Positions 40,161-48,100 of a DNA stretch of 64,000 nt are shown piece after piece. Source of the DNA: Desulfarculus baarsii DSM 2075 (GTDB lineage Bacteria > Desulfobacterota > Desulfarculia > Desulfarculales > Desulfarculaceae); NCBI RefSeq assembly GCF_000143965.1, contig NC_014365.1:337501-401500 (forward strand), given 5' to 3'. Below the pieces are notes generated by a model, which was given only the letters and a program-made list of their open reading frames with translations, made no database searches and was not told where the DNA came from. Position 1 is the first letter of the stretch. Each line of letters begins with the position of its first letter. Both the position numbers and the translations under genes were made by a program.

Positions 40161-40188
40161 TTGACAGGCCGGCCGGGCCGTGTTAATC
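40161..40188 (+). promoter_or_regulatory. Candidate promoter of the ilv operon
   Basis: TTGACA (40161-40166) followed after 16 bases by TTAATC (40183-40188; GTTAAT one base earlier is also possible). It lies about 40 bases before the ilv leader peptide start, where an attenuation-controlled promoter is expected. Confidence 0.5.
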
Positions 40189-40226
40189 CAGCCTGTAATC
40201 ATCACACGCACCCGGAGGCACCGGCG

Positions 40227-40373
40227 ATGGCGCGAAAACAGCCGTCCATGCAACAACCAGGGCGAGGTTCCAGGCAACCTCGACACGACAACTCCCGCCC
40301 GTCTTTCGGCTTCTCCGGCCAGCTATCCCCCCGCGTATCCGTATCTCGCATCGTAATTATTCTGCCCCTATAA
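40227..40373 (+). CDS. ilv operon leader peptide (attenuation)
   Basis: A 48-codon frame with GGAGG 8 bases before its ATG. Its last twelve codons read VSVSRIVIILPL and stop: eight are Val, Ile or Leu. They use codons that are rare in this window (GTA three times, ATT twice, CTA), which would sharpen ribosome stalling when branched-chain amino acids or their charged tRNAs are scarce. It lies 141 bases before ilvD. This is the classical layout of a branched-chain attenuator. The N-terminal part is basic and polar and has no other recognisable role. Confidence 0.8.
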   Translation: MARKQPSMQQPGRGSRQPRHDNSRPSFGFSGQLSPRVSVSRIVIILPL

Positions 40374-40444
40374 GGGGCCGAAACCCGTTTCCAACTCTCG
40401 TTTTTACAACCAGTTTCGCAAAAAACCAAACCAGCGCCCCTTTT
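40364..40444 (+). promoter_or_regulatory. ilv attenuator: competing hairpins
   Basis: GCCCCT (40364-40369) pairs with AGGGGC (40373-40378) across the leader stop codon. AAGGGGC (40372-40378) can instead pair with GCCCCTT (40436-40442), followed by more T residues. The two structures exclude each other. Which one terminates cannot be settled by eye; the T run after the second is only four bases long. Confidence 0.5.
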
Positions 40445-40514
40445 GGCCGCGCGCCCGTTTTTTGGCTCCATCCGTGGGCCGACGCGCGCCGGCGGGGCCG
40501 GAGGCCAAGGCGTC

Positions 40515-42200
40515 ATGCGTAGCGACAAAGTCAGACTAGGCGTTCACCGCGCGCCCCAGCGCTCGCTGTTGCGGGCCATGGGCCACGACGACGAAACCAT
40601 GGTCAAGCCGTTGATCGGCATAGCCAATTCGTACTCTCAGGTCGTGCCCGGCCACATCCACCTCAACGACCTGGCCCTGGCCGTGGCCGAGGGCGTGCGC
40701 CAGGCCGGCGGCCAGCCCATGGAGTTCAACACCATGGCCATCTGCGACGGCCTGGTCATGGGCCACGACGGCATGCACGCCTCGTTGCCCAGCCGCGAGA
40801 TCGTCGCCGACAGCGTCGAGCTGATGGCCCAGGCCCACTGTTTCGACGGCCTGGTGCTTTTGGCCAGTTGCGACAAGATCGTCCCCGGCATGCTCATGGC
40901 CGCCGCCCGCCTGGATATCCCGGTGGTGGCGGTCACCGGCGGACCCATGGCCGCCGGCCGCCTCGACGGCAAGCGGGTGGATTTGATCACCGTTTTCGAG
41001 GGCGTGGCCAAGGTGGCCAGCGGCCAGATGACGCCGGATGATCTGGCGCGCCTGGAGCGCTTGGCCTGCCCCGGCCCGGGCAGTTGCGCGGGGATGTTCA
41101 CGGCCAACACCATGGCCTGCATCACCGAGGCCCTGGGCCTGAGCCTGCCCGGCTGCGCCTGCGCCCTGGCCGCCGGCCCGGAAAAGCGGCGCATCGCCCG
41201 CGACAGCGGCCTCAAGATCGTCGAGCTGGCGTCCAGGGATCTGCGGCCCTCGGCCATCCTGACCCCGGCCGCCTTTGAAAACGCCTGCCGGGTGGACCTG
41301 GCCCTGGGCGGCAGCACCAACACCGCCCTGCATCTGCCGGCCATCGCCCACGCCGCCGGCGTGAGCTTCGGCCTGGCCGACTTCGACCGCCTCGCGCGCC
41401 AGACGCCCCACCTGTGCTCGATGAGCCCCGGTGGGCCCATGCACATGGAAAACCTGGGCGCGGCCGGCGGCGTGGGCGGCGTGCTGCGGGCGCTGGCCCC
41501 GTTGATCGACGCCTCCTGCCTGGCCGTGGGCGGGAGCATCGCCGACTACATGACCGAGCGCCAGCCCGATCTGGTCGTCGACGGCCAGTTGGTGATCCAC
41601 CCCCTTAGCGCGCCGGTGCACGACCAGGGCGGCATCGCCGTGCTGCGCGGCAACCTGGCCCCCGATGGCGCGGTGGTCAAGCAGACCGCCGTGGCCCCGG
41701 AGATGATGCGCCACCAAGGCCCGGCCCAGGTCTTTGACAGCGAGGACGCCGCCGTGGCGGCCTACGACCAGGGCCGCATCCGGCCCGGCGGCGTGCTGGT
41801 GGTGCGCTACGAGGGGCCGGCCGGCGGGCCGGGCATGCGCGAGATGCTGGCCCTGACCGCCCTGATCTCGGGCGGGCCGCTGAGCGGCAAGGTGGCCCTG
41901 ATCACCGACGGCCGCTTCAGCGGCGGCAGCCGGGGCGCGGCCATCGGCCACGTATCGCCCGAGGCGGCCCAGGGCGGGTTGATCGGCCTGGTGGCCGACG
42001 GCGACATGATCGAGATAGACATCCCCGGCCGTCGCCTGGAGCTTGCGGTTGCGGCCGAGGAGTTGGAGCGCCGTCGCCAGGCCTGGCGGCGGCCCGCGGC
42101 CAAATTCGCCCGCGGCCCCCTGGCCCGCTACGCCGCCCTGGTGGGCAGCGCGGCCGGCGGCGCGGTGTTGAGGGACGATTTCTCCCAAGGGAGCAGATGA
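40515..42200 (+). CDS. ilvD: Dihydroxy-acid dehydratase
   Basis: 561 residues. Fe-S ligands are visible in LLASCDKIVPG and CPGPGSCAGMFTANTM, with the C-terminal TDGRFSGGSRG motif. It dehydrates dihydroxy-isovalerate and dihydroxy-methylvalerate to the keto acids of valine and isoleucine. GGAGG lies upstream of the ATG at 40515; the longer frame starts inside the attenuator. First structural gene of the ilv operon, followed one base later by ilvB. Confidence 0.97.
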   Translation: MRSDKVRLGVHRAPQRSLLRAMGHDDETMVKPLIGIANSYSQVVPGHIHLNDLALAVAEGVRQAGGQPMEFNTMAICDGLVMGHDGMHASLPSREIVADSVELMAQAHCFDGLVLLASCDKIVPGMLMAAARLDIPVVAVTGGPMAAGRLDGKRVDLITVFEGVAKVASGQMTPDDLARLERLACPGPGSCAGMFTANTMACITEALGLSLPGCACALAAGPEKRRIARDSGLKIVELASRDLRPSAILTPAAFENACRVDLALGGSTNTALHLPAIAHAAGVSFGLADFDRLARQTPHLCSMSPGGPMHMENLGAAGGVGGVLRALAPLIDASCLAVGGSIADYMTERQPDLVVDGQLVIHPLSAPVHDQGGIAVLRGNLAPDGAVVKQTAVAPEMMRHQGPAQVFDSEDAAVAAYDQGRIRPGGVLVVRYEGPAGGPGMREMLALTALISGGPLSGKVALITDGRFSGGSRGAAIGHVSPEAAQGGLIGLVADGDMIEIDIPGRRLELAVAAEELERRRQAWRRPAAKFARGPLARYAALVGSAAGGAVLRDDFSQGSR

Positions 42201-42201
42201 G

Positions 42202-43950
42202 ATGAGCAGCGCGGCAAAAGCGAAAAACAAACCCCAGGCCGGAACCTACAACGGCGCCGACGCCGTGGTCGACGCCCTGCGCGCCCAAGGCGTGGAGCTT
42301 ATCTTCGGCATGGTCGGCGGGCAGATCATGCCCGTCTACGACGCCTTGCACCGCCACCACTGCTTTGGCCACGTGCTGGTGGGCCACGAGCAGGGCGCGG
42401 CCCACATGGCCGAGGGCTACGCCCGGGCCACCGGCAAGCCCGGCGTGATCATGACCACCAGCGGCCCCGGCGCCACCAACCTGGTCACCGGCCTGGCCGA
42501 CGCCTTCATGGACTCCACCCCGGTGGTGGCCATCACCGGCCAGGTGGCCAGCACCCTGCTGGGCAATGACGCCTTCCAAGAGGCCGACATGCGCGGCATC
42601 ACCATGCCCATCACCAAGCACAACTATCAGGTGCAAAACGCCGACGATCTGCCCGAGATCTTCGCCGAGGCCTTTTACGTGGCCCTCAGCGGCCGGCCCG
42701 GCCCGGTGCTCATCGACCTGCCCCGCGACGTGGCCGTCAGCCCCTGCCAGCCGCGCCAGGCCACGCCCATGCCGCCCACCGGCTACAAGCCGCCGTTCAA
42801 GCCCCATCCGTTGCAGGTCGAGCGGGCCTTGTCACTGATGGCCCAGGCCCAGCGGCCGGTGATCATCGCCGGCGGCGGGGTGATCCACGCCGGGGCCCAC
42901 GAGTCGCTGCGCAAGCTGGCCGAGCTGACTGGTTTTCCGGTGAGCACCACGCTGATGGGCCTGGGCGGCCTGCCGGCCGATCATCCCCTGAGCCTGGGCA
43001 TGCCCGGCATGCACGGCACCGGCTACGCCAATCTGGCCATTTACAACGCCGATCTGCTGCTGGTGGTCGGTTGCCGGCTCGACGACCGCGTCACCGGCAA
43101 CGTGGCCAAGTTCTCGCCCGGCTCCAAGGTCATCCACGTCGACGTGGACGCCTCCGAGATCGGCAAGAACCTGGAGTGCCAAGTGCCCATCGTCGGCGAC
43201 GCCGGCCAGGCCCTGGCCCAACTGCTGGCCGGGGCCCAGGCCTGGCCCGAGCGCCCCGACACCACGGCCTGGCGCAAGCAGATCGACCAGTGGAAAAAGA
43301 AATACCCCATGGTCTATCCTAAAAGCGACGACGTCATCGCCCCCCAGTGGGCCATCCAGGAGGTGGGCAAGCTCCTGGCCCCCGAGGACATCGTCGTCAC
43401 CGGCGTGGGCCAGCACCAGATGTTCGTGGCCCAATATTATCCCTTCCGCCGGCCGCGCACGATGATCAGCAGCGGCGGGCTGGGCACCATGGGCTTTGGC
43501 CTGCCGGCGGCCATCGGGGCCCAGATGGGCGCGCCCGAGCGCCAGGTGGTCTGCTTTGACGGCGACGGCTCGTTTTTGATGAACATCCAGGAGCTGGCCA
43601 CGGCCGTGCGCTATCGGGTGCCATTGGTGGCGGTGGTGCTCAACAACGCCTGGCTGGGCATGGTGGCCCAGTGGCAGCGCATGTTCTACGATCGGCGCAT
43701 GAGCCAGTCCGAAACCGCCGCGCCGCCCTACGATAAGGTGGCCCAGGCCTTTGGCGCGCTGGGCAAACGGGTCGAGCGGCCCGAGGAGTTCGTGCCGGCC
43801 ATGCAGTGGGCCCTGCGCGAGGCCAAGGCCCAGAAGCTGCCGGTGGTCTTGGACGTGATGATCGAGCGCGAGGCCAAGGTGCTGCCGATGGTGCCGCCGG
43901 GCGGCGCCAACGCCGAGTTCATCCCCTGCCAGAGCGGAGATTGCCAATGA
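42202..43950 (+). CDS. ilvB: Acetolactate synthase large subunit
   Basis: 582 residues: N-terminal pyrimidine domain (VDALRAQGVELIFGMVGGQ, catalytic glutamate in GHEQGAAHMAEGYARA), central FAD-binding domain (about 200-335) and C-terminal ThDP domain with GDGSFLMNIQELATA to VVLNN. It condenses pyruvate with pyruvate or 2-ketobutyrate. Its stop overlaps ilvN by 4 bases, so the catalytic and regulatory subunits are made together. Confidence 0.97.
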   Translation: MSSAAKAKNKPQAGTYNGADAVVDALRAQGVELIFGMVGGQIMPVYDALHRHHCFGHVLVGHEQGAAHMAEGYARATGKPGVIMTTSGPGATNLVTGLADAFMDSTPVVAITGQVASTLLGNDAFQEADMRGITMPITKHNYQVQNADDLPEIFAEAFYVALSGRPGPVLIDLPRDVAVSPCQPRQATPMPPTGYKPPFKPHPLQVERALSLMAQAQRPVIIAGGGVIHAGAHESLRKLAELTGFPVSTTLMGLGGLPADHPLSLGMPGMHGTGYANLAIYNADLLLVVGCRLDDRVTGNVAKFSPGSKVIHVDVDASEIGKNLECQVPIVGDAGQALAQLLAGAQAWPERPDTTAWRKQIDQWKKKYPMVYPKSDDVIAPQWAIQEVGKLLAPEDIVVTGVGQHQMFVAQYYPFRRPRTMISSGGLGTMGFGLPAAIGAQMGAPERQVVCFDGDGSFLMNIQELATAVRYRVPLVAVVLNNAWLGMVAQWQRMFYDRRMSQSETAAPPYDKVAQAFGALGKRVERPEEFVPAMQWALREAKAQKLPVVLDVMIEREAKVLPMVPPGGANAEFIPCQSGDCQ

Positions 43951-44525
43951 GCGAGGAATATTGCCCCATTTCGGTGCTGGTGCGCAACGAGCCAGGCGTG
44001 CTGGCGCGGGTGGCCGGCCTGTTCGCCCGGCGGGGCTTCAACATCAACAGCCTGGCCGTTGGCGAGACCGAAGACCCCCAGGTCAGCCGCATCACGGTGG
44101 TGGTCAAGGGCGACCCCCACACCGTCGATCAGGCGGTCAAGCAACTGCGGCGGCTGGTCAGCGTGATCAAGGTGCGCGATCAATCCACAATGCCGCGCGT
44201 CGAGCGGGGCCTGGCCCTGATCAAGGTGCGGGCCACGCCGGCCCAGCGCGGCGAGATCATGCAGTTGGCCGGCGTTTTCCGGGCCAACGTCGATCACGTC
44301 GACGGCCACTGCATGGTCATCGAGGTCAGCGGCAACCGCAACAAGATCGAGGCGATGATTGACATGCTAAAGCCCTATGGCATCATGGAGCTGGCCCGCA
44401 CCGGCCAGATCGTCCTGGCCCGCGTGCGCTCCATCCACCAGGGCATGGAAGGGGCCGGCAGCGCCTACGTGCCCGACCCCGACGAAGACCCCCAGGCGAC
44501 CTACAACGTTTATCAACAAAGTTGA
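43947..44525 (+). CDS. ilvN: Acetolactate synthase small (regulatory) subunit
   Basis: 192 residues. An N-terminal ACT domain (ISVLVRNEPGVLARVAGLFARRGFNINSL) binds valine for feedback control; the C-terminal half matches the ALS small-subunit domain. The 30-residue tail is acidic and may be disordered. ATG overlaps the ilvB stop (ATGA); ilvC follows after 9 bases. Confidence 0.96.
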   Translation: MSEEYCPISVLVRNEPGVLARVAGLFARRGFNINSLAVGETEDPQVSRITVVVKGDPHTVDQAVKQLRRLVSVIKVRDQSTMPRVERGLALIKVRATPAQRGEIMQLAGVFRANVDHVDGHCMVIEVSGNRNKIEAMIDMLKPYGIMELARTGQIVLARVRSIHQGMEGAGSAYVPDPDEDPQATYNVYQQS

Positions 44526-44534
44526 GGAGATAAA

Positions 44535-45524
44535 ATGTCGGTGACCATTTATTATCAAAAAGACTGCGACATGGGCCTGCTCAAAGGCAAAAAGATCTGC
44601 GTGCTGGGTTATGGCTCCCAGGGCCGCGCCCACGCCAACAACCTGCACGATTCGGGCCTGGACGTGACCGTGGCCCTGCGCGAGGGTTCGGCCACCTTCC
44701 AGCGCGTGCAAGACGATGGCCTCAAGGCCGCGCCCGTGGCCCAGGCCGTGGCCCAGGCCGACCTGGTCTGCTTCCTGCTGCCCGACCAGGTCCAGGCCGA
44801 CGTCTACAACGCGGTGGTGGCCCCCAACCTGAAAAAAGGCGCGGCCATTCTCTTTGCCCACGGCTTCAACATCCACTATGGCCAGATCGTGCCGCCGGCC
44901 GACGTGGACGTGCTGATGGTGGCCCCCAAAGGCCCCGGCAAGCTGGTGCGCGACCTCTACGTGGCCGGCCAGGGCGTGCCCTGCCTGATCGCCATCCACC
45001 AGGACGCCTCGGGCAAGGCCAAGGACTTGGGCCTGGCCTACGCCGCCGGCATCGGCGGGGCCCGGGCCGGCGTCATCGAAACCTCGTTCAAGGAAGAGAC
45101 CGAGACCGACCTCTTTGGCGAACAAGCCGTCTTGTGCGGCGGGCTCACCGCCCTGATGAAGGCCGGCTTCGAGACCTTGGTCGACGCCGGTTACGCCCCG
45201 GAGATGGCCTACTTCGAGTGCATCAACGAGATGAAGCTCATCGTCGACCTGATCTACCAGGGCGGCATGACCAACATGCGCCGCTTCATCTCCGACACGG
45301 CCAAGTTCGGCGACGTCACCCGCGGGCCCAGGGTCATCGACGACTACGTGCGCCAGAACATGGAAGAGATCCTCACCGAGATTCAAAACGGCGAGTTCGC
45401 CCGCGAGTGGATCTTGGAAAACAAGGCCAACCGCCCGGTGTTCAACGCCCTTTTGCGGGCCGACGAGGCCCACGAGATGGAAGAAGTCGGCGCGCGCCTG
45501 CGCTCGATGATGAACTGGCTCTAG
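44535..45524 (+). CDS. ilvC: Ketol-acid reductoisomerase
   Basis: 329 residues, the short class I form. The NADPH-binding loop is [19 protein letters not shown] and the helical C-terminal domain carries the metal-binding acids ([14 protein letters not shown], then [13 protein letters not shown]). It isomerises and reduces acetolactate and acetohydroxybutyrate. Last gene before a strong terminator. Confidence 0.97.
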
Positions 45525-45542
45525 GCCTGAAAAACGTCGGCC

Positions 45543-45566
45543 GGGGCCTCGCCGCGAGGCCCCTTT
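45543..45566 (+). terminator. Terminator after ilvC
   Basis: GGGGCCTCG (45543-45551), loop CCG, CGAGGCCCC (45555-45563), then TTT. A perfect 9-bp GC stem that should end or reduce ilv transcription before leuC. A second GC-rich inverted repeat (around 45633-45666) lies in the leuC leader. Confidence 0.65.
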
Positions 45567-45703
45567 GGCCCGCCCCCGCAAAATGCTTGAACCACGGGCC
45601 GGGGCGGGCTATTTTGCCTTTGTGACCAAAAAAACGCGCGCGCCTCCGCTGGCGGAAGCGCGCGAGGGGCCGTTTCGTCGCGGCCGTCGGGAGTTTTTCG
45701 CCC

Positions 45704-47098
45704 ATGCCCAGCCTCATCGACAAGATTTGGGACGCCCACGTGGTCCTGCGCGAGCCGGGACGGCCGGCGCTGCTCTACGTCGACCGTCACCTGGTTCACG
45801 AGGTCACCTCGCCCCAGGCCTTCCAGGGCCTGCGCCTGGCCGGTCGCCGGGTGCGCCGGCCCGACCTGACCTTCGCCGTCTGCGACCACGTCGTGCCCAC
45901 CGACAGCCGCCAGCGGCCCCTGGCCGACCAGGTCGCCGAGACCCAGCTGGCCGCCCTGGAGCAAAACGCCGCCCAGTTTGGCGTGACCTTTTTTGGCATG
46001 GAAGACCCGCGCCAGGGCGTCATTCACGTGGTCATGGCCGAGCAAGGGGTGATCCTGCCGGGCGCCACGGTCTTTTGCGGCGACAGCCACACCGCCACCC
46101 ACGGCGCTTTCGGCGCGCTGGCCTTTGGCGTGGGCACCAGCGAGGTCGAGCATATCCTGGCCACCCAGACCCTGGCCCAGGCCAAGCCCAAGAGCATGGC
46201 CGTGCGTTTTGTCGGCCAATTGCCGGCCGGCCTTTCGGCCAAGGACATGGCGCTGGCCTTCATCGGCCAGGTGGGCGCGGCCGGCGGCACGGGCCATCTG
46301 GTCGAATACATGGGCCCGGCCGTGGAGGCCCTGTCCATGGAAGGCCGCATGACGCTGTGCAACATGTCGGTGGAGTGCGGGGCCAAGGCCGGCCTGGTGG
46401 CCCCCGATCAGACGACTTTTGACTATCTGCAAGGTCGGCCCTTCGCGCCCAAGGGCGCCGATTGGGACGAGGCCGTGGCCTGTTGGCGCGCGCTCAAATC
46501 CGACGCCGACGCGGTCTTTGACGCCGAGGTCGTCGTCGACCTCAGCGGCCTGGAGCCCCAGGTGACCTGGGGCATCAACCCCGGCCAGGCCACCGGCCTG
46601 AGCGGCCGCGTGCCCGATCCGGCGGCCATGGCCGACCCCGAGCAGCAACGGGCCGCCATCAAGGCCCTGGCCTACATGGGCCTGGAGCCGGGGCAAAAAA
46701 TCGCCGACCTGGCCGTGGATTACGTGTTCATCGGCTCGTGCACCAACGGCCGCATCCAAGACCTGCGCGCGGCGGCGGCGGTGGTCAAGGGCCGCAAGGT
46801 CGCCCCGGGCGTGACGGCCCTGGTCGTGCCCGGCTCGGGCCTGGTGCGGGCCCAGGCCGAGGCCGAGGGCCTGGACCGGGTGTTCATCGAGGCCGGCTTC
46901 CAGTGGCGGCTGGCCGGCTGTTCGATGTGCCTGGCCATGAACCCCGACGTGCTGCCCAGCGGCAAACGCTGCGCCAGCACCAGCAACCGCAATTTCGAGG
47001 ATAGGCAGGGCCGGGGCGGGCGCACCCATTTGTGTTCGCCGGCCACGGCCGCGGCCTCGGCCATCGCCGGCAGGCTGGCCGACGCCAGGACGCTCTAG
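45704..47098 (+). CDS. leuC: 3-Isopropylmalate dehydratase large subunit
   Basis: 464 residues of the aconitase superfamily, bacterial LeuC length. SDxHxxTxGAFGxLxFGVGTSE-type motif near residue 125-145 ([20 protein letters not shown]) and cluster cysteines in IGSCTNGRI and [10 protein letters not shown]. It isomerises 2-isopropylmalate to 3-isopropylmalate with LeuD. leuA is not in this window, so leucine synthesis also depends on a distant locus. A GGGAG lies 11 bases before the ATG. Confidence 0.95.
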
Positions 47099-47156: not shown

Positions 47157-47432
47157 ATGACCCACGCGCAACTGATCGACCTGGCGATGACGCGCATCGG
47201 CCAAGCCCTGACCGCGGCCCTGGCGCCGGGCGCGAGCGCCGTGCTCAGCCATGTCGCGGCCGACTTTTTCGGCCCGCCGGACGGGCTGGAGCGGCCAGAG
47301 GTGACGGTGGACGTGCAAAAGGCCGGCCGCACCATGGCCTTTGCCGGGGCCTTTGTCTGGCGGGATGGCCAGCGACTGGCCAGGGTCAGCGCCGTCTACA
47401 GGGTTCGACCGGCCGCCGAGCCGACAACCTGA
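47157..47432 (+). CDS. Small protein resembling half a hotdog thioesterase
   Basis: 91 residues. The C-terminal part ([35 protein letters not shown], quoted for pattern; residues 46-83) has the strand pattern of the second half of PaaI-like hotdog proteins. The N-terminal helix is alanine-rich. No catalytic residue is recognisable. It lies between leuC and leuD, 44 bases before leuD, presumably in the same transcript, where an extra gene is unusual. Function unknown. Confidence 0.55.
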
Positions 47433-47476: not shown

Positions 47477-48100
47477 ATGGAAAAATTCGAGACTTTCACC
47501 GGCGTGGTGGCCCCCCTCGACGTGGCCAACGTCGACACCGACCAGATCATCCCCAAGCAGTTCCTCAAGCTGGTCGACCGGGCCGGCTTTGGGCAATACG
47601 CCTTTTACAACTGGCGCTTCAAGCCCGACGGCCAGCCCGACGAGGGCTTCGTGCTCAACCAGCCGCGCTATCAGCGGGCGCGCATCCTGCTGGCCCGTGA
47701 CAACTTTGGCTGCGGCTCCTCGCGCGAGCACGCGCCCTGGGCCCTGGCCCAGTACGGCCAGGGGCTCGGGGTGGTCATCGCCCCCAGCTTCGCCGACATC
47801 TTCACCAACAACGCCTTTAATAACGGCATGCTGCTCATCAGCCTGCCGGCGGCGACGATCGACGAGCTCTTCGGGCGCGTGCGGGCCCACGAGGGCTACG
47901 CCCTGACCGTGGACCTGGCCGCCCAGCGCCTGAGCGGGCCCGATGGTTTCGCCTGCTCGTTCGAGATCGACCCCTTTCGCAAAGAGCGCCTGCTGGAGGG
48001 CCTGGACCACATCGGCCTGACCTTGCGCCATGAGGCGGCCATCGCCGCCTATGAGCAAGGCCGCCAAAAACCCTGGCAGGCCGCCGTGGCCAAATCTTGA
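47477..48100 (+). CDS. leuD: 3-Isopropylmalate dehydratase small subunit
   Basis: 207 residues, full-length LeuD of the type paired with long Leu[17 protein letters not shown] at the start, then [16 protein letters not shown] (swivel-domain substrate loop) and [13 protein letters not shown]. Joins LeuC in the leucine pathway. Its stop overlaps a possible TTG start of the next gene. Confidence 0.96.

Follow-up and report, generated by a model that had tools for sequence, protein, structure and literature searches.

Leader peptides dense in codons for the end product lie 5' of the branched-chain amino acid (BCAA) genes in the ilvGMEDA, ilvBN, thr and leu attenuators of E. coli and Salmonella, and the control codons of these enteric leaders are biased and partly rare, for example CUA in leu (PMC1183508). 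According to theory, low usage of a control codon in bulk mRNA raises sensitivity, while rarity alone is an oversimplification (PMC1183508). The leader described here, which precedes the ilv operon of Desulfarculus baarsii and of its relatives in the order Desulfarculales, likewise carries a dense cluster of BCAA codons, some of them rare. It differs from the enteric attenuators in that most members have no canonical terminator, the operon begins with ilvD or ilvB, the stop codon of the leader is enclosed in a short hairpin, and the leader itself is longer (40–58 codons among 26 leaders).

Several other systems resemble this leader in part. The Corynebacterium ilvB-II, ilvB-OMG and Leptospira ilvB motifs are also BCAA-codon-rich uORFs before an ilv operon for which attenuation has been proposed (PMC10272879); they belong to other lineages and precede ilvB, whereas the Desulfarculales leader mostly precedes ilvD. 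The Corynebacterium operon has been modelled with a three-hairpin attenuator (PMC11857589), in contrast to the single conserved hairpin found here. Leaders of Mycobacterium cys operons likewise have control codons near the stop and no conserved terminator, and Rho has been proposed to act there; their codons are for cysteine rather than BCAAs, and the accessible part of that report describes no conserved stop-codon hairpin (PMC1262725). In Salmonella speF orf34 (PMC6386406) and E. coli tnaC, leader translation counters Rho-dependent termination, as may be the case for the Desulfarculales leader, and pausing at consecutive Arg codons is important in the case of speF (PMC6386406). Both differ from our case in ligands and genes, and in speF it is translation itself that antagonises Rho, followed by an RNase G step (PMC6386406). 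For Desulfobacterota, the open PMC literature yielded no report of an amino-acid operon attenuated by a leader peptide; the main text of Rodionov et al. 2004 on delta-proteobacteria mentions neither ilv nor leader peptides (PMC545781).

A BCAA-rich leader precedes the ilv operon of D. baarsii

Within the window (the whole 64,000-nt stretch of D. baarsii DNA analysed here), NCBIfam models assigned the genes ilvD-ilvB-ilvN-ilvC-leuC-leuD in this order, with ilvD at the head as the original prediction had it, and the ORF that follows leuD is taken, from its sequence, to be leuB. Strong inverted repeats, GGGGCCTCGCCGCGAGGCCCCTTT and CGCGCGCCTCCGCTGGCGGAAGCGCGCG, lie in the ilvC-leuC gap (45540-45680) and could mark an internal terminator or processing site, and a 91-aa ORF of the thioesterase superfamily (4HBT) lies between leuC and leuD (47157-47432, + strand).

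The leader lies upstream of the operon, in the interval from 40115, where a prmA-like methyltransferase gene stops (its best family match is under the cut-off), to the ilvD start at 40515. A 48-codon leader had been predicted in front of ilvD, and its start codon, Shine-Dalgarno and stop codon are all present (Table 1). As also predicted, eight of its final 12 residues, VSVSRIVIILPL, are Val, Ile or Leu; a count of eight or more in the last 12 is unique to it among all 1441 frames of the window that end in a stop and have at least 15 codons. The codons GTA, ATT and CTA, said to be rare in this genome, do occur at only 1.1, 4.0 and 1.8 per 1000 codons in genes called on 464 kb of it; this background for codons and terminators comprised 400 kb of genome stretches plus the window.

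The promoter in Table 1 is conserved as well. TTGAC(A/G) stands 5' of the first or only leader in 20 of 20 genomes, with the end of the -10 element 27–39 nt before the leader start codon, and from this conserved element transcription would start about 30 nt 5' of the leader. A generic promoter scan did not pick up the promoter at 40161-40187. Taken together, a short ORF with a Shine-Dalgarno lies between promoter and operon and ends in a cluster of product codons, which is the arrangement of a leader-peptide attenuator in the broad sense.

Table 1. Features of the leader region and operon (window coordinates).
Feature	Position	Strand	Details
Predicted sigma-70-type promoter	40161-40187	+	TTGACA 40161-40166; weak -10 GTTAAT 40182-40187, 15 nt spacing
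Shine-Dalgarno GGAGG of leader	40214-40218	+	about 8 nt 5' of ATG 40227-40229; read from sequence
Leader ORF	40227-40373	+	48 codons, MARKQPSMQQPGRGSRQPRHDNSRPSFGFSGQLSPRVSVSRIVIILPL, stop TAA 40371-40373; same C-terminal tract in 20/21 Desulfarculales genomes
Control codons	40335-40370	+	GTA TCC GTA TCT CGC ATC GTA ATT ATT CTG CCC CTA; codon comparison, 26 leaders
Stop-codon hairpin	40364-40378	+	GCCCC 40364-40368 / GGGGC 40374-40378, TAA in or beside loop; about -9.5 kcal/mol
Long antiterminator of original prediction	40372-40442	+	AAGGGGC 40372-40378 / GCCCCTT 40436-40442; possible, not above chance
G-poor, little-structured spacer; candidate Rho-loading stretch	40380-40419	+	composition and folding
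Weak terminator-like hairpin and T tract	40434-40463	+	GCGCCCCTTTTGGCCGCGC 40434-40452, 5 nt, TTTTTT 40458-40463; doubtful as terminator
ilvD, dihydroxy-acid dehydratase, first gene	40515-42200	+	TIGR00110, 734 bits, over cut-off
ilvB, acetolactate synthase large subunit	42202-43950	+	TIGR00118, 768 bits
ilvN, acetolactate synthase small subunit	43950-44525	+	TIGR00119, 187 bits
ilvC, ketol-acid reductoisomerase	44535-45524	+	TIGR00465, 449 bits
leuC	45704-47098	+	TIGR00170, 734 bits
leuD	47477-48100	+	TIGR00171, 253 bits

The leader and its control codons are conserved in Desulfarculales

We compared the regions upstream of ilvD in relatives, searched for a strict DNA pattern in the order and in a genome collection of 84,980 species, and ran a 53-nt sequence model over the class and over 395 genomes of the phylum. 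The leader is kept in relatives: of 21 Desulfarculales genomes, 20 have one of the same design before the ilv operon, 26 leaders in all, among them records named Desulfarculus sp., Desulfarculaceae and Desulfocarbo indianensis. The lone exception, G005, lacks ilvD and its match falls within a coding gene, so that every examined Desulfarculales genome having the operon also has the leader. In G001 it lies upstream of ilvB, the first gene of an ilvBNC operon (L110, about 680-1013). The sequence model found no true copy in 42 other genomes of the class, and in the 395 phylum genomes only weak matches that look like coding or chance sequence. The same leader is absent from the region upstream of leuA in the D. 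baarsii genome, and Rfam covariance models gave no match near the leader at the gathering threshold and none at E up to 1.

Every one of the 26 leaders has at least six Val, Ile or Leu codons among its last 14 (mean 9.1) and ends in (Ile/Val)-x-Leu-Pro-x-stop. Codon -5 is ATT in 25 leaders and GTA in one, codon -3 is CTG in all and codon -2 is CCC in all. In 23 tabulated leaders, all preceded by a Shine-Dalgarno-like stretch, GTA encodes 61 of 74 Val residues (24 of 681 in ilvD genes; p = 1e-56) and ATT encodes 35 of 60 Ile residues (13 of 307 in ilvD genes; p = 3e-22); since the leaders share descent, these p-values and all cross-genome counts given here are not independent and are inflated by relatedness. 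Most of the relatives are MAGs. Within the last 14 codons, the ratio of A/T-ending to other codons is 108:103 for BCAA codons and 2:109 for the remaining ones; the A/T endings are thus almost confined to BCAA codons and do not reflect a general liking of the leaders for such codons. The 26 leaders amount to a clean natural test of control-codon choice, with GTA and ATT used only where the amino acid is sensed.

Conservation is strongest at the end of the leader, over its five final codons, its stop and the six bases beyond. In the body, substitutions by codon position (104:84:123) suggest weak protein constraint, which is as expected for a leader yet weak proof of coding. An indel-phase test gave a weak signal for the leader frame, with gaps in multiples of three in 9 of 15 cases in the leader against 16 of 73 downstream, the pairs being non-independent. 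A rival idea is that the ORF encodes a small functional protein and that conservation of the RNA is incidental. In the g3 clade some leaders do combine a basic N-terminus with hydrophobicity over the C-terminal half, but the D. baarsii leader has no hydrophobic stretch, and both the placement of conservation at the very end and the spread in length from 40 to 58 codons speak against a protein, making this explanation scarcely credible.

A hairpin wraps the leader stop codon

Two competing hairpins had been predicted to begin at the stop codon. The first of them, at 40364-40378, is present and is kept in all 26 leaders: the segment that runs from GCCCC through two bases and the stop codon to GGGGC folds on itself in 26 of 26, with a stem of 5–6 bp and folding z-scores that are negative throughout (mean -2.3). 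The core pairs are invariant in the 26 leaders, and classical covariation is consequently not seen in this hairpin. The number of extra Gs, however, tracks the stop codon, with three in TAG leaders (17 of 17) and four in TAA leaders (7 of 7), and two leaders from two genomes have a stem lengthened to CCCCGG-TAA-CCGGGG. Preservation of the stem when the stop codon changes points to pairing of the RNA.

The hairpin also accounts for a feature that might otherwise suggest nascent-peptide arrest, in which the C-terminus I-x-L-P-x would act from within the exit tunnel to stall the ribosome when a small molecule, rather than an uncharged tRNA, is sensed, on the model of TnaC, which responds to tryptophan. 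The Leu-Pro at -3/-2 is invariant (26 of 26), and the stop codon and the RNA that follows are the most conserved parts; both count in favour of such an arrest. But the invariant Pro codon CCC is accounted for by the left arm, GCCCC, of the hairpin; the remainder of the peptide is poorly conserved; and it is the codons GTA and ATT that are kept, not the residues alone, as tRNA sensing predicts. We regard arrest of this kind as highly improbable.

No general antiterminator or terminator stands out in the downstream RNA

In an attenuator of the classical enteric type, a stalled ribosome would let segment 2 (GGGGCC, past the leader stop) pair with segment 3 (GGCCCC or GCCCCTT) and thereby prevent formation of an intrinsic U-tract terminator, 3:4. 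The second predicted hairpin, 40372-40442, would be this antiterminator. Its arms, 40372-40378 and 40436-40442, exist in the window with a duplex energy of -13.4 kcal/mol when the loop cost is left out, and T6 follows at 40458-40463. Pairing of segment 2 with downstream sequence is, however, no better than in shuffles (p = 0.20 in D. baarsii; combined p = 0.18 over 16 representatives) and stands out in only three of the 16 (G002, G007 and G014). With this combined value, the long antiterminator was not upheld as a general conserved element.

We scored intrinsic terminators with a home-made measure that was checked on convergent gene ends of the same genome as a positive control (14.0 against 10.3 for shuffles; 18% against 1.6% above 24). 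The D. baarsii hairpin at 40434-40452 (-6.7 to -8.2 kcal/mol) scores 14.5 against 17.4 for its own shuffles, and regions 3' of the 26 leaders score at shuffled level, 8.6 against 9.1. A terminator-like candidate follows 14 leaders and none follows the other 12; the candidates of G002, G007 and G008 beat all 15 of their shuffles. With no excess after the leaders while convergent gene ends do score, an intrinsic terminator was rejected as a general feature, and the terminator hairpin with U tract that defines the classical enteric type is not enriched over shuffles across the 26 leaders.

In a few genomes the enteric type fits better. An 8-bp pairing, GGGGCCGC/GCGGCCCC, competes in G002 and G007 with a GCGGCC-CCGG-GGCCGC hairpin followed by T5-T6 (pairing p = 0.01-0.02; terminator scores 23.6 and 24.5). 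In 23 of 26 leaders, moreover, the stretch 30-120 nt past the G run shows more structure than its shuffles, which also favours this type. For the set as a whole, with pairing at chance and terminator scores equal to shuffles in a genome that has normal terminators at its convergent ends, we consider this type of read-out rather unlikely. The doubt whether the read-out follows the enteric one, raised because ilvD leads the operon and the T tract is short (six Ts behind a weak hairpin), has proved justified. The claim of an attenuator accordingly divides: the BCAA-sensing leader peptide is upheld by conserved codons, hairpin and promoter, whereas the antiterminator and terminator are not. The leader set also offers a test of whether attenuation works without an intrinsic terminator.

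The leader RNA might instead hide or free the ribosome-binding site of ilvD according to where the leader ribosome stands. In G010, G012 and G017, segment-1 CCCCT of the free leader can pair with the ilvD Shine-Dalgarno AGGGG, and in G002 masking segment 1 raises accessibility from 0.41 to 0.91. In most genomes, however, such masking barely alters the predicted accessibility of the Shine-Dalgarno, and the distance from leader stop to ilvD ATG varies from 130 to 181 nt. Because no consistent effect on accessibility emerged across genomes we rejected control at the ilvD Shine-Dalgarno, and translational control is improbable.

Since most members lack a canonical intrinsic terminator, we prefer termination that is Rho-dependent or that uses structured RNA lacking a U tract. 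Past the stop-codon hairpin, the RNA has few Gs and little structure for about 35 nt and then becomes structured. All 26 leader transcripts are rich in C and poor in G, with a positive C>G skew in 26 of 26; in D. baarsii this skew ranks within the top 0.3% among the 200-nt windows of the genome, which also encodes Rho (718 bits). An encoded Rho together with C-rich, G-poor, little-structured RNA is suggestive of a Rho-dependent attenuator, and the spacer, the skew and Rho favour Rho-dependent or U-less termination over a textbook terminator, although they are not proof. The read-out is likely to be termination that a stalled ribosome blocks, either Rho-dependent or at a hairpin without a U tract; composition points, quite tentatively, to Rho as the terminating factor.

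A model for BCAA sensing

Cross-genome conservation supports the leader, its codon bias, the hairpin and the promoter. With the leader, its rare Val and Ile codons, the C-terminal motif, the stop hairpin and the promoter all conserved, the proposed sensing of BCAAs through ribosome stalling is strongly supported, and the leader is very probably a feedback switch. We hold with good confidence that the ilvDBNC-leuCD operon is subject to BCAA-responsive leader-peptide attenuation that senses charged Val-, Ile- and Leu-tRNA; within this mechanism, we infer the tRNA sensing, the direction of the response and the termination step.

A ribosome would translate the leader behind RNA polymerase. When BCAAs are plentiful, it would pass quickly over the rare GTA and ATT codons, terminate within the hairpin and depart; the GCCCC/GGGGC hairpin would then form, the C-rich, G-poor RNA would be exposed and transcription would halt 5' of ilvD. 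When branched-chain aminoacyl-tRNA runs short, the ribosome would stall within the last 14 codons and shut out the terminating factor, and the operon would be transcribed. By the general geometry of the ribosome footprint, a ribosome with codon -5 in its A site would just cover the GCCCC arm and block the hairpin, so that a stall at ATT ATT CTG would mask it. The short conserved hairpin would lie out of reach of a ribosome halted at the upstream Val codons and would not be masked by it, and starvation for Val would therefore need another route to the read-out. Such upstream GTA stalls are easier to understand under Rho-dependent termination, because the parked ribosome may act as a roadblock to Rho.

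Tandem leaders in one clade

In all six genomes of the genus-level g7 clade (L054, L055, L071, L075, L111 and L112), two leaders lie about 300 nt apart upstream of ilvD. We found no convincing promoter for the second leaders, so the pair is probably carried on one mRNA. Judged by their last 14 codons, the two may weigh different amino acids: in G006, G009, G011 and G015 three Val codons occur in the first leader, while the second has one Val and five or six Leu codons, a split that is not seen in G013 and G016. Salmonella mgtCBR likewise has two leader ORFs in series on one mRNA (PMC3641672). Its mgtM and mgtP sense ATP and proline (PMC3641672), whereas both g7 leaders appear to sense BCAAs and share a common end. 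The clade shows how such switches can be stacked. A fuller picture, plausible but held with less than even confidence, is that of an order-specific BCAA attenuator in which the stop-wrapping hairpin and Rho replace terminator and antiterminator, and which has been doubled in one clade so that two stalls would be integrated per mRNA.

Two further structures were seen in other genomes. In a group of g3 genomes (L010, L011 and L014), a small CCCC-AA(A)-GGGG hairpin covers the ilvD Shine-Dalgarno. In Candidatus Acetothermia JdFR-50 (L053, 1123-1145, - strand), a 14-codon ORF with a Shine-Dalgarno, MFWPIRGPLIILPR, ends in CTGCCCC-GCTA-GGGGGCAG directly 5' of a gene for a class I tRNA synthetase (Pfam tRNA-synt_1), which reads as ileS. 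Its 3' part, GGGAAGC...GTTTCCCGTTTTT, is terminator-like, and the ORF could represent a similarly designed Ile attenuator of independent origin.
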